In this document: piece after piece, positions 17,630 through 23,129 of the stretch | Position numbering within the stretch: the first letter of the stretch is position 1 | Layout: each line of letters begins with the position of its first letter | IMG/VR virus record: IMGVR_UViG_3300046689_000144 | Span: 1-23,131 of that record | From: a virus | Reading direction: 5' to 3' (one strand) | Length of the DNA stretch: 23,131 bases | Notes under the pieces: model-generated | What the model was told of the DNA's origin: nothing | The model's database searches: none | Seen by the model: the letters and a program-made list of their open reading frames with translations, nothing else | Translations under genes and position numbers: made by a program

Positions 17630-18547
17630 CTATGCGCCAGCCGTGCCGTAGATGTTCTGCCAGAGGAACGCGTCCCACGCCTGCCGGAAGCGGACCTTGT
17701 AGATCCGGTTGCCGGTGCGCGCGTCCTGCATGGCAGGGGCGGCGGTGATCCCGACGCGGTCCACGCAGACCAGCCCGTGCGTTTCCTTCGCATCGGCGAC
17801 GAGGAACCACGCGTCCTGATCCGTCAGGTAGGGGTTGGTGAGGATGCGGATGTTGCGCCGACGCTTGATCGGGTTCACATCGTTGTCCACGCTCCCCGGC
17901 AGCAGCGTGCTGTTGAGCAGGCGGTCGGCCAGCATCTCCAGCTGCGGCGGCACGTAGAGGATCCAGTTCATCACGGGCGCGACCAGCTGCCCGCTCTCCA
18001 GCTTCGTGTCCGTCTGCACATCGACAATCGCCTGATTCAGCGAGTCGTAGCTCAGGTCGGCATCCGTCGCCGGACGGTTGCGCGCGGTGCCGCCCCCGGC
18101 CAAGACGTGCGCCGTGTTGAAGAGCGACACACCATCGGGCGCCAGCTGCGTCGAGAACCCGAGGTTGAACGGGATCGCCGCGTACTTCTCCTGCACGACG
18201 CGCGCGGAGAACGCGAGCCACGACGCCTGCCGCTGCAGCACGTCGAACTGGTCGTCTTCCATCGCCGTCTCGGTGACTTCGAAGCCGAGGCCGAACTCGA
18301 CCGGCGTCACGTCCTTGCTGTAGCCGGGCCGAATCAGGTCGAAGGCGTAGATGCTGCCCTCGGGCTTCTCGGGCACGTCGCCGAACGGCGTGACGGTCTG
18401 GAACCGTTCGAACTTGCGCGAGGAACTCTTGCGCGAGTAGATGTCGGTCCAGATGGGGGGAAGCTCTTTCAGCTGCTTGCCGAGCAGCGCGTACACCGTC
18501 TTATCGACGTTGTCGTAGAGCGCCGCAAAAGTTCCGCGTACTTGCAT
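17630..18547 (-). CDS. Major capsid protein, Mu gpT-like, 305 aa
   Basis: GAGGAG precedes the ATG. The protein has the order and spacing expected of Mu-type major head subunit gpT: an N-terminal helical arm, VTPFGDVPEKPEG (about 51-64), then GLGFEVTETAMEDDQFDVL (about 85-104; the EDD pair is characteristic), a helical part, DGVSLFNTAHVL (about 138-149), YDSLNQAIVDVQ, ILYVPPQLEMLADRLLNSTL (about 197-216) and ILTNPYLTDQDAWFLVAD. The length equals that of Mu gpT as I recall it. It would have an HK97-type fold and form the shell. It follows a decoration candidate and is followed by strong hairpins, as expected for a highly expressed capsid gene. Confidence 0.85.
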   Translation of the reverse strand: MQVRGTFAALYDNVDKTVYALLGKQLKELPPIWTDIYSRKSSSRKFERFQTVTPFGDVPEKPEGSIYAFDLIRPGYSKDVTPVEFGLGFEVTETAMEDDQFDVLQRQASWLAFSARVVQEKYAAIPFNLGFSTQLAPDGVSLFNTAHVLAGGGTARNRPATDADLSYDSLNQAIVDVQTDTKLESGQLVAPVMNWILYVPPQLEMLADRLLNSTLLPGSVDNDVNPIKRRRNIRILTNPYLTDQDAWFLVADAKETHGLVCVDRVGITAAPAMQDARTGNRIYKVRFRQAWDAFLWQNIYGTAGA

Positions 18548-18575
18548 GATGATCTCCTCGGGAACTGATGAGCGA

Positions 18576-19046
18576 CTACGAGGTCTGCGGCGTCCGCACC
18601 GCGTTCATAAACTTGCAGACGACCTTCCCGTTCACGTCGCCGACCGCGTCGATCAGTTCCGTGACGGTGACCGCCTTATTGGTCGTGTCGGCAAGGTTCA
18701 CGCGGAAGATGTCGCGGCCAGCGGCCACGTCGTACGTGAGGCCGAACTGCGCGCCGACGTTGGCGAGCGCGAGCGTGCCGGTGTCGGCGACGCGGGCCTG
18801 ATACTCGGTGTTCTCGTCGGCCATGTAGACGCCGATCTTGCGTCCGGTGACCCCGCTCGCGGCTTCGGCGGCGATGCCCACGATAGCGGCCACCGCTGCG
18901 GTCGCACCCTTCACGATGCTCCCGGCGCTGAGAATGACGAGATGCCCCGGCCTGAAGGTCTGCGCCGCGCCTTCAAGGAAGTACATGATCCGGGTGTTGC
19001 GGTACGGACGAAAGCCGTCACCTGCCCCGGCAGTGAATGTCACCAT
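18576..19046 (-). CDS. Head decoration / cement protein candidate, 156 aa
   Basis: I choose ATG 19046, with GAGGG 5 bases upstream. The longer in-frame ORF to 19157 would run into the structured non-coding leader. The product is beta-rich with Gly and Ala (GHLVILSAGSIVKGATAAVA, AIVGIAAEAASGVTGRKIGV, then VADTGTLALANVGAQFGLTYDV) and ends KFMNAVRTPQTS. Small beta-barrel proteins directly before the major capsid gene usually stabilise or decorate the shell, and the repeated 'VxGI...G..i.vy.a' phrase suits this. It is the first gene after the promoter and leader and starts 28 bases before the capsid ribosome-binding region, so the two are co-transcribed. Confidence 0.65.
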   Translation of the reverse strand: MVTFTAGAGDGFRPYRNTRIMYFLEGAAQTFRPGHLVILSAGSIVKGATAAVAAIVGIAAEAASGVTGRKIGVYMADENTEYQARVADTGTLALANVGAQFGLTYDVAAGRDIFRVNLADTTNKAVTVTELIDAVGDVNGKVVCKFMNAVRTPQTS

Positions 19047-19288
19047 GGAACCCTCGCCCTGATGGTCCGCGCGAGCGCGCAGACAAGTGTCTTCGGGGTT
19101 GCGGGTTGGCCTCGACGCAGTCGCAAGCGGCCAACCGAGGCTCGCGAGCAGCAGCACGCGCTGGGGTCACACCGTGTGCCCCGGCACGCGTGATACCGGG
19201 GAGGCGAAAGACGGTGGGGCAGCTGGACACAGAGGCGCGTGCCACTGGAGTAACACGCGGGAACCGTTGGAACTGCCCCGACCGTCAG
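19047..19288 (-). promoter_or_regulatory. Long structured 5' leader of the decoration/capsid genes
   Basis: About 240 bases without a convincing gene separate the promoter from the decoration start. In the minus-strand RNA I find, in order: an outer stem of 12 pairs with one bulge (19273-19285 with 19211-19222) enclosing a 6-bp hairpin (19254-19259 with 19236-19241); a 6-bp stem (19196-19201 with 19179-19184); a competing 8-bp stem with a one-base bulge (19179-19182 plus CACA with 19163-19178), which uses the same GGGG and so excludes the former; and a perfect 8-bp stem (19129-19136 with 19104-19111) with a 4-bp inner helix. AACCC segments at about 19097-19108 could pair with GGGUU of the ribosome-binding region. 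This looks like a cis-regulatory RNA, possibly a switch. Confidence 0.55.
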
Positions 19289-19294
19289 CGACGA

Positions 19295-19323
19295 AGGTTA
19301 CGGCGCGACGCCGTCGCTGTCAA
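19295..19323 (-). promoter_or_regulatory. Sigma70-type promoter ahead of the capsid genes
   Basis: The minus strand has a perfect -35 box TTGACA (19318-19323), a 17-base spacer and TAACCT (19295-19300), which fits the TAnnnT -10 pattern of GC-rich bacteria. Transcription would start near 19288, right before the first leader stem. The promoter begins 4 bases after the stop of the membrane protein gene, so it gives the decoration and capsid genes extra transcription over read-through from the portal side. Confidence 0.55.
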
Positions 19324-19327
19324 GCCG

Positions 19328-19528
19328 TCAGAAGAACGCGGGCGGCTCCGGCCCGAACAGCACGTAGAGGATCACCAGCGCGGCGAACGCGAACCGCAGC
19401 AGCGTGATCGCCGGACCTCCCGGGATCGGCATCCCCACCAGCTGCAGCAGCAGCGGGATGACGAACGCGAGGATGACGACGAGGATCACCGCGTAAACGA
19501 GCCGCCAGAGCAGTGCCTTGAGGTTCAT
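19328..19528 (-). CDS. Small two-helix membrane protein, holin candidate, 66 aa
   Basis: ATG 19528 is chosen: the longer in-frame ORF to 19675 overlaps the previous gene and adds only Arg/Ser-rich shadow sequence. AGGAG lies about 10 bases upstream and overlaps the previous TAG stop. The N-terminus is short with one Lys and one Arg, then a long hydrophobic helix (residues about 10-30: VYAVILVVILAFVIPLLLQL), a Pro/Gly turn (GMPIPGGP) and a second hydrophobic helix (about 42-59: LLRFAFAALVILYVLFG). The tail is PEPPAFF. Size and two helices fit a class II holin, but no endolysin is visible nearby, so an assembly or membrane role is possible. Confidence 0.55.
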   Translation of the reverse strand: MNLKALLWRLVYAVILVVILAFVIPLLLQLVGMPIPGGPAITLLRFAFAALVILYVLFGPEPPAFF

Positions 19529-19541
19529 GGCCCAAAAGCTC

Positions 19542-21445: not shown

Positions 21446-21795
21446 TGAGAATATTCCACGGTCGGGCCGAGCGGCGGCGCGTCGGGGTCCGGTGTGCTCT
21501 GCGTCGCGAGCTTGCGCTTGTATTCCTCGACCGCCCGCTCGGGGATGCTGAGGATGTCCACGGCGGCTTCGCGCGCCGCGATGAGGCCGATGGCCTTCTC
21601 GCCGATGGCCTGCGCGCTCCCAGACCGCAGGAGCGTCACGACCGTCTCCGCGAACACCCGTGCCCCGTAGCGCGTCGTGGCCTCGGCGCAGACCACCGCC
21701 CAGCCCGGCGAGACAAGGAGCGCCTCAAGGTCAGCCACGCGCTGCTGGAGGGCATCTGGGTCCGCGCTCGCGCGCGGCGTCGTCCGTCTCGGCAC
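21442..21795 (-). CDS. Small helical protein next to the portal, GTG start, 117 aa
   Basis: GTG 21795 shares a base with the portal stop (TAGTG), and no better start is visible, so translation is probably coupled to the portal gene. The product is helical: a heptad-like helix (ALQQRVADLEALLVSPGW, about 15-32), a second helix (RYGARVFAETVVTLLR) and a third (IGEKAIGLIAAREAAVDILS, then ERAVEEYKRKLA). The C-terminal 20 residues are Pro/Asp-rich. I do not recognise a family. Neighbours on both sides are portal and co-chaperonin genes, suggesting a role in head assembly, such as a portal partner or minor scaffold. Confidence 0.6.
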   Translation of the reverse strand: MPRRTTPRASADPDALQQRVADLEALLVSPGWAVVCAEATTRYGARVFAETVVTLLRSGSAQAIGEKAIGLIAAREAAVDILSIPERAVEEYKRKLATQSTPDPDAPPLGPTVEYSQ

Positions 21796-23129
21796 TACTG
21801 CACTCCGTGGGACATCGCCAACGACATCTGCGCCAGCAGGTCAGGCGGCACCTGCGGCATCGACCCCATGCCCGGCACCACGTCCGGCGGCATCGGCTGC
21901 GGCGGCGGCATCCCGCCCTCGTTGCCCATCGGCGGGCCTCCCGGCGGGGGCGGTCCCGGTGGCGGTGGCCCCGGTGGCGGCGGGCCTCCCGGCGGCGGCG
22001 GTGGTCCCGGTGGTCCCGGTGGCGGCGCTCCGGCGCCCGGCGGCGGCGGCGCCCCCGGCTGCGCGCCCGGCGGCTGCATCCCCGGCGGGGGCGGGGGCGG
22101 CTGCATCGCCTGCTGTGTCTGCCACTGCCGCAGCGAGCGCATCAGCTGGCCCTTGTTCGGTGAGTCGTAGAGCGACAGCGCCTGCTCAAACAGCGGGATG
22201 ATCACGTCCGGCGACGAGAACACCTGCTGCAGCGTCGGGTTCATCTGCGCGAACCCGCCCATCACCTGCATGAACCCGTTGTAGTTGCTCCGCTGCTTGC
22301 TCTTGTCCGCGCTCTCGACCGACCCGTGGGGTTTCCCGTGGAACGTCCCGGCGAGCGCCTCGCCCGTGATGCCGCCCTCGGCGAGGTCGATCTGGCGGAA
22401 CTGCAGCTGCTGCATGAACCGCTCGCTCGCCTCCAGCGGCGCTTCATCCGCCGCGCGGCGCCACAGTTCGTGGCGGATCTTGAACAGATCCTCCATCGTC
22501 TCCTGAATGTTGCGGACCTGCTCTTCGATGCGGACGAAGCTCTGCTCGGTGACCATCTGCACTTCGCCGAGCGTGCGGCTCTCCTGCGGCGCGCTGCCGA
22601 GCGTCACGTCGTTCAGCCCGCTCAGGCGTTCCGCCGCGTCGATGATCGCCTGCTCGCGCCCCGCCATCGACTGCGGTACATCAGGCAGGGCCACGGGCTG
22701 TACGTCGCCCATGTCCTGCACCGTGATGACCGCGCCCACGCCCCACGGCTCCTCGTCCATGTCCCAGCCGCTGTTCCTGAGTCGCTTGATCGGCGCGTTG
22801 TTGACGAGGTTGCTGCGGTCGGCAATCGCATTGCGCGTGCCCATGTGCTCTTCGCCAATCGACGCGAGCTTATCGACGTGGCTCTGGCCGTAGACGTTCA
22901 GCGGGTTGGGGGCGGGCCGGAACAGCAGGTAGCGCGGCAGACCGAGGTCGTCCAGCTGCACGCGCAGGATCTGCCGGTGAATGGCCGACAGCGTGATGAT
23001 GTACCACTCCTCGCTGCCGTCGTCATCGAGGTCGAGCAGGACGTGCAGTTCCCATAGCTCTTTCTCGATGGTCGTCTCGTTCGACTGCGCGGCCACGTCG
23101 ATGCCGCCCTGCATCACCGACTGCGGCAG
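21795..23129 (-). CDS. Portal protein, 5' end cut by window edge, Pro-rich C-terminus
   Basis: The frame is open to the right edge, so the first part of the protein is missing; an internal GTG at 23117 is not a natural start. Visible features match short-tailed phage portals: DGSEEWYIITLSAIHRQILR, PAPNPLNVYGQSHVDKLASI (the 'vyG.S..D.l' phrase), GTRNAIADRSNLVNNAPIKR and a long helical part (EEQVRNIQETMEDLFKIRHE). After a helix (FEQALSLYDS...LMRSLRQWQTQQ), the C-terminus has about 75 residues rich in Pro and Gly with runs such as PPPPPPG. The portal ring would sit at one capsid vertex and carry the DNA packaging motor. Terminase genes are expected just outside the window. Confidence 0.75.
   Translation of the reverse strand: MPQSVMQGGIDVAAQSNETTIEKELWELHVLLDLDDDGSEEWYIITLSAIHRQILRVQLDDLGLPRYLLFRPAPNPLNVYGQSHVDKLASIGEEHMGTRNAIADRSNLVNNAPIKRLRNSGWDMDEEPWGVGAVITVQDMGDVQPVALPDVPQSMAGREQAIIDAAERLSGLNDVTLGSAPQESRTLGEVQMVTEQSFVRIEEQVRNIQETMEDLFKIRHELWRRAADEAPLEASERFMQQLQFRQIDLAEGGITGEALAGTFHGKPHGSVESADKSKQRSNYNGFMQVMGGFAQMNPTLQQVFSSPDVIIPLFEQALSLYDSPNKGQLMRSLRQWQTQQAMQPPPPPPGMQPPGAQPGAPPPPGAGAPPPGPPGPPPPPGGPPPPGPPPPGPPPPGGPPMGNEGGMPPPQPMPPDVVPGMGSMPQVPPDLLAQMSLAMSHGVQ
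21884..22112 (-). repeat. Pro/Gly-coding low-complexity tract inside the portal gene
   Basis: This tract is built from short GGN/CCN triplet units (plus strand: repeats of ggcggt, ggtccc and cggcgggcc), coding for Pro, Gly, Met, Gln and Ala (QPPPPPPGMQPPG, GPPPPPGGPPPPG). Several near-identical 9-15 base units recur, consistent with growth by slippage. The runs of up to six Pro would need elongation factor P for smooth translation. Confidence 0.6.

Follow-up and report, generated by a model that had tools for sequence, protein, structure and literature searches.

A structured leader RNA with a conserved predicted pseudoknot ahead of phage head genes

Head genes, promoter and leader

The window, that is, the whole stretch of DNA that was analysed, is a virus record of 23,131 bases with its head genes on the minus strand, several of which have no match. 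The genes and the promoter that frame the leader are as follows.

21795–23117, minus strand: SU10-type portal gene
19320–19535, minus strand: 71-codon open reading frame upstream of the leader, with its stop at 19320
19295–19323, minus strand: promoter, with -35 box TTGACA (19323–19318), 17-base spacer and -10 box TAACCT (19300–19295), from the sequence and homologous leaders
18576–19046, minus strand: gene of a predicted head decoration protein of 156 amino acids, directly after the leader, with its ATG at 19046
17630–18547, minus strand: major capsid protein gene, next in the operon, from Pfam and PHROG

The 71-codon frame begins with TTG and has no family match, and DNA homologous to 19320–19535 is present in three related loci (L012, L014 and L030) with 85–89% identity. 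For the 156-residue protein, Pfam and PHROG give no hit; its AlphaFold2 model (pLDDT 86.4) resembles a capsid-stabilising protein of TW1 (Foldseek, E 4e-4) as well as HFTV1, Sf11 and Pam3 capsid chains and lambda gpD. These matches have modest E-values and TM-scores of 0.3–0.5, but they agree consistently on decoration proteins. The model thereby supports its prediction as a head decoration protein, as the initial annotation had named it. The capsid gene is matched by the Pfam families Phage_capsid_4 (69 bits) and Mu-like_gpT (28 bits) and by PHROG head proteins, and its product appears distantly related to the Mu gpT family.

Between the stop of the 71-codon frame and the ATG of the decoration gene lies a non-coding gap on the minus strand; the initial annotation had rightly reported such a gap but had given it 281 bases, while it measures 273–277. 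The perfect -35 box followed 17 bases later by a TAnnnT box, also reported there, is present in the sequence. The strict pattern TTGACN, 16–18 bases, TANNNT occurs upstream of the pseudoknot described below in 19 of 40 homologous leaders, against a mean of 0.11 and a maximum of 2 in dinucleotide shuffles, and at the level of sequence the promoter is conserved ahead of the leader across relatives. The transcript is expected to start near 19288, and an RNA from there (242 bases) begins at the first long hairpin.

The minus-strand fold of the gap is more stable than 199 of 200 shuffles (z -3.64), while the plus strand has no excess stability over shuffles (z -0.48), which indicates a coding-strand RNA and not an element at the DNA level. 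The region is about 66–69% GC and folds easily, so that chance folding, or a packaging or replication signal at the DNA level, might be considered; given the strand-specific excess stability and the compensatory changes, such an origin is disfavoured and hardly credible. Protein coding through the gap was rejected: counted from the start codon, the conserved block occurs in each of the three frames, no frame is conserved, and an in-frame stop is reached within 250 bases in 28 of 31 leaders. The earlier proposal of a leader RNA survives this check.

Related loci were grouped by the identity of their capsid protein to that of the window: 96–100% in group A, 80–88% in group B and 53–61% in clade C. 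One contig (L002) has an identical capsid, decoration gene and leader, and many further related loci were found. In most of about 40 related leaders, the gap before the decoration gene is kept at about 250–350 bases while its sequence diverges; by BLAST, the gaps of groups A and B have little in common and those of clade C nothing. A DNA similarity search of named phages gave nothing useful, and the named phages with related capsid genes (about 30–35% identity, Pam1-like) lack a gap there, which makes the element a property of the lineage of the window. Among GTDB genomes, only capsid relatives at 29–35% identity were found and no host, nor was a cultured member of the phage group found.

A model of the region from the pseudoknot to the start codon, built on groups A and B, gives one strong match per contig, at the leader locus, in ten A/B contigs, with the next matches at E above 0.1; the leader is not a dispersed element. 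Weighted by sequence and containing few base pairs, this model is limited and misses clade C, whose element was recognised by its layout. One strong match per genome record, for a large and structured RNA in a head gene cluster, would also suit a separate RNA cut from the leader, such as a packaging RNA like that of phi29. This is very improbable, since the structure takes in the Shine-Dalgarno sequence of the next gene and always stands directly upstream of that gene.

Hairpins and pseudoknot of the leader

Two hairpins precede the pseudoknot.

19210–19286, minus strand: first long hairpin, at the expected transcript start, from individual folds and alignment A1
19179–19201, minus strand: hairpin P3, CCCCGGUAU-CACGC-GUGCCGGGG, from group A comparison

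The tip of the first hairpin, UUAC-UCCA-GUGG (19256–19239), is invariant in group A in alignment A1, in which the arm above it aligns poorly; in individual folds, the helix recurs with different sequences in L002, L003, L010 and L012. In four group B leaders (L017–L020) and one of clade C (L025), the loop of the first hairpin consists of pyrimidines (UCCCUC, UCCUCCCU) and is complementary to a Shine-Dalgarno-like sequence; in group A it is the invariant UCCA loop. Both kinds of loop might contact the ribosome-binding site.

In eight group A leaders, P3 is paired in 100% of cells, with both-side changes at five of its nine pairs, in keeping with the stem 19196–19201/19179–19184 of the initial annotation. 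A second stem, 19179–19182/19163–19166, had been proposed to exclude the first by using the same GGGG. It is possible in the window but lost in relatives, in which either the GGGG or the CCCC is gone, and the switch built on it was rejected, not being retained in L003, L004, L010, L012 and L014. The 12-pair outer stem described earlier did not stand either: it uses 19290–19299 and overlaps the -10 box, so that a transcript starting near 19288 would lack its 5' strand, and individual folds of most relatives do not use it. The outer stem could form on a transcript that reads through from upstream, though it is not a conserved feature.

The strongest feature of the leader, absent from the initial annotation, is a pseudoknot located about 60 bases before the start codon.

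19104–19147, minus strand: H-type pseudoknot, from alignments and partner exchange
19147–19140, minus strand: strand a, UCGCGAGC
19136–19129, minus strand: strand b, GGUUGGCC
19128–19121, minus strand: strand a', GCUUGCGA
19120–19112, minus strand: pseudoknot loop, CUGCGUCGA
19111–19104, minus strand: strand b', GGCCAACC

In the group A alignment, the strands follow each other in the order a, b, a', b', with no linker from b to a', and a pairs with a' (stem 1) and b with b' (stem 2). A mechanical search recovers this layout, equally far from the start codon, in groups A and B and in a part of clade C. Pseudoknot scores as high as those of single leaders arise in shuffled sequences about once in 60, and therefore comparison among leaders, not single scores, is taken as evidence.

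Alignment A5 comprises 12 leaders and was made from unaltered sequence alone. All 15 pairs are formed in 12 of 12 leaders (180 of 180 cells), both sides have changed at nine of them, including all eight of stem 1, and none of 500 shuffles matches the observed pairing or covariation score; when the partner strand is slid, pairing falls to 20–53%. Alignments A3, A6 and A7, which misplace strand a because the first loop varies in length, were left out of these counts, and A4 omits the variable first loop. Stem 2 is nearly invariant inside groups A and B (one pair, U-A to C-G) and varies between groups, with GUUGGCC/GGCCAAC, GUCGGCC/GGCCGAC, GGUCAG/CUGACC, GGAUCAA/UUGAUCC, GGAAG/CUUCC and GUCGGAA/UUCCGAC among its forms.

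In 30 leaders annotated by eye, 94% of stem 1 and 98% of stem 2 are paired, against maxima of 61% and 69% when partners are exchanged among the leaders. Annotation of strands by eye favours pairing, so stem 1 was also tested without choosing strands, by the energy of the duplexes that the 25 bases preceding b can form with the whole stretch that separates b from b'. Summed over 34 leaders, own partners reach -719 kcal/mol and swapped partners -513 (sd 19; best of 5000, -615). Mismatches or bulges occur in stem 1 of some clade C pseudoknots, and the conserved loop letters are few and clade-specific (CUGCGUCGA in group A, GGC... in clade C). Sequence comparison thus shows the leader to be a real, conserved minus-strand element with a conserved pseudoknot structure. 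The promoter and large structured leader that the initial annotation had placed ahead of the decoration and capsid genes are upheld by the kept promoter and by compensatory changes in homologous leaders. Ribosomal frameshifting by the pseudoknot was discarded; the upstream frame ends about 170 bases before it.

Shine-Dalgarno masking and the proposed control of translation

From strand b' on, the leader continues into the ribosome-binding region.

19094–19107, minus strand: two anti-Shine-Dalgarno copies, from the sequence
19107–19101, minus strand: copy 1, AACCCGC, overlapping b' by four bases
19100–19094, minus strand: copy 2, AACCCCG, without overlap with b'
19065–19084, minus strand: GC-rich hairpin GUCUGCGC-GCUC-GCGCGGAC, inside the Shine-Dalgarno hairpin, from group A comparison
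19049–19059, minus strand: Shine-Dalgarno region, GGGCGAGGGUU, from the sequence

The Shine-Dalgarno region forms a duplex of -7.9 kcal/mol with the 16S tail. The GC-rich hairpin is paired in six of the six group A leaders that have it and stands at the same place in most relatives, and in nearly every leader the Shine-Dalgarno sequence is enclosed in a hairpin that spans the region from b' to the start codon. The AACCC segments once suggested as masks of the ribosome-binding region are these two anti-Shine-Dalgarno copies, both complementary to it. Copy 1 is used when b' is free and copy 2 in the whole-transcript fold; folded from a start near 19288, without the outer stem, the window forms the local Shine-Dalgarno hairpin AACCCCG/CG-A-GGGUU.

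Different partners serve in different relatives, for instance GACGUCCC/GGGACGUC in L018, ACGUCUCC/GGAGGCGU in L020, ACCUCACC/GGUGAGGU in L087 and CUCCCAC/GUGGGAG in L086. The anti-Shine-Dalgarno:Shine-Dalgarno duplex energies sum to -484 for own partners and -400 for swapped ones, with -437 as the best of 400 shuffles. By clade, the covariation is equalled by 0 of 200 shuffles in clade C and 5 of 200 in group B; group A has none and is uninformative, both strands being nearly invariant. At least two bases of b' pair with the Shine-Dalgarno region in 29 of 34 leaders. Comparison among leaders thus shows, in most relatives, both the Shine-Dalgarno pairing and its sharing of bases with the pseudoknot, and evolution appears to support a competition between the last strand of the pseudoknot and the Shine-Dalgarno hairpin.

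In the folding model, holding b' in the pseudoknot raises the mean unpaired probability of the Shine-Dalgarno sequence only from 0.17 to 0.27. The effect is strong in L017 (0.20 to 0.52), L082 (0.01 to 0.42), L097 (0.00 to 0.42), L025 and L085, and there is none in group A, in which the second AACCC copy takes over. Masking alone is near that of shuffled GC-rich sequence (0.17 unpaired versus 0.26). The case for a switch is therefore well motivated and weakest for the window's own leader.

The conserved promoter, the structured leader, the masked start, the shared bases and the single copy fit cis-acting translational control, and a promoter-proximal leader with such a role for the decoration and capsid genes is regarded as the somewhat favoured reading. 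Transcription would start near 19288, and the RNA would begin with the first long hairpin, followed by the second hairpin, the linker-less H-type pseudoknot and the hairpin in which the Shine-Dalgarno sequence of the decoration gene lies. With the anti-Shine-Dalgarno strand beginning at or inside b', the b:b' pairing would compete with or weaken the masking hairpin. Stabilisation of the pseudoknot would then allow more initiation on the decoration gene and, by coupling, on the capsid gene, and its opening would allow less. The likeliest effector would be a protein of the phage head or of its assembly, which would signal feedback or timing, and the leader probably governs the timing or the amount of head protein synthesis. 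From these comparisons we infer switching, its direction and its effector.

The strong hairpin exactly at the predicted 5' end, the fact that b' hardly affects exposure of the Shine-Dalgarno sequence in group A and the abundant expression that head genes need would also suit an element of stability or ribosome loading, in which the 5' hairpin and the pseudoknot would keep RNases out or serve as a standby site for high, constant head expression without switching. This is unlikely, as it has no obvious need for a pseudoknot that compensatory changes preserve across large divergence, or for b' and the anti-Shine-Dalgarno strand to have bases in common, as they do in 29 of 34 leaders.

The put sites of phage HK022 are RNAs that make the polymerase resistant to terminators. 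A leader directly after a conserved promoter and before a long head operon could act on RNA polymerase in the same way and render the late transcript termination-resistant; such antitermination, likened to put from description, is improbable, leaving unexplained the covarying Shine-Dalgarno pairing and the steady distance to the start codon.

Known systems and distant members

At the gathering score, Rfam 15 has no match in the window and 32 related loci except a tRNA-Met in L029. The initial annotation had raised membership in Mu-gpT-DE (RF03012), a motif named after Mu gpT, to whose capsid family the window's capsid gene is distantly related. The covariance model of this motif (53 positions) speaks against membership: it has no match in the leader even at E 10, its best score of 12.6 bits (18545–18562) is at chance level against a cut-off of 49 bits, with 13 of 14 control genomes behaving likewise, and nothing in the window and eight relatives comes near the cut-off.

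A closer likeness is the pseudoknot in the gene 32 mRNA of T4-type phages, through which gp32 regulates its own translation (PMC3014915). It shares with the leader an H-type pseudoknot about 60–70 bases upstream of a phage start codon and thus upstream of the ribosome-binding site. Unlike gene 32, with its unstructured A+U-rich ribosome-binding site, the leader has a GC-rich hairpin there, and its masked site can share bases with the pseudoknot. Moreover, gene 32 encodes a DNA-binding protein, whereas the leader serves head genes, with a promoter directly upstream and extra structured domains. The rpsO (S15) operator of E. coli likewise contains a pseudoknot used in autogenous translational control (PMC3014915), and is likened here by description; rpsO is a ribosomal protein gene. 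By analogy with gp32 and S15 (PMC3014915), the simplest guess at the effector is a head or assembly protein.

Few conserved loop letters, all clade-specific, and stem sequences that are freely exchanged make a small-molecule riboswitch of a new class, with the pseudoknot as aptamer, quite improbable; head genes would be an unusual target, and Rfam gives no riboswitch match. What recommends it is the layout of SAM-II and preQ1 riboswitches, whose pseudoknots stand near the Shine-Dalgarno sequence; the leader resembles SAM-II in having its pseudoknot beside a masked ribosome-binding site, but differs from both in its two hypervariable stems, clade-specific loops, lack of a conserved binding core and lack of an Rfam match.

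A published description of the leader family was not found in open-licence literature, which is weak evidence of absence. A translational leader with a pseudoknot is a known kind; the family, the overlap with Shine-Dalgarno masking and the tandem arrays described below appear undescribed in the searchable literature. In DNA phages, the amounts of capsid protein are usually taken to be controlled by promoters and gene order, and here a conserved RNA with evolutionary support at the level of base pairs is placed to control the most heavily made virion proteins. A 2010 review considered the gene 32 pseudoknot to be perhaps the only one in viruses that serves translational autoregulation (PMC3014915); if autoregulatory, the leader would add a large second family beside it. 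The free variation of stem partners within a kept layout makes testing by compensatory mutants easy.

In clade C, small H-type units of the form a-G(U/C)-CGCC-(G/A)-a'-loop-GGGCG are repeated upstream of the last pseudoknot, with 35 units in 16 of 27 leaders against 3.1 in shuffles (maximum 6). Their a/a' stems vary (CGCGG/CCGCG, ACAG/CUGU, GCCG/CGGU, AUCGCGU/ACGUGAU), and tandem small pseudoknots with the common CGCC/GGGCG second stem are seen in L026, L080, L085, L087, L088, L090, L097 and L098. A larger extra pseudoknot is present in L026, L080, L088, L097, L098 and L106, and in clade C its last loop often starts with GGC. Such arrays are an unusual RNA architecture in themselves. They invite the tentative and rather doubtful extension that the leaders form an undescribed class of phage sensor RNA, in which a series of one to four H-type pseudoknots, of which the last would compete with Shine-Dalgarno masking, would sense how head assembly stands and adjust the synthesis of decoration and capsid proteins. 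In group A, the P3 loop UCACGC could pair with a downstream GUGUGA, letters that hardly vary there, and P3 might be a reduced unit of the clade C kind.

The distant L106 (capsid protein 42% identical) has a pseudoknot with stems of 12 and 9 pairs and a GGCUCCUCG loop, and given this member the pseudoknot module may be older than the lineage of the window. In the divergent L029, the gap between the upstream and decoration genes holds a tRNA-Met gene (2434–2511, anticodon CAT), and between it and the start codon there may be a pseudoknot-like layout (CCGCGUC, GGUUGG, GACGCGG, CCAACC).
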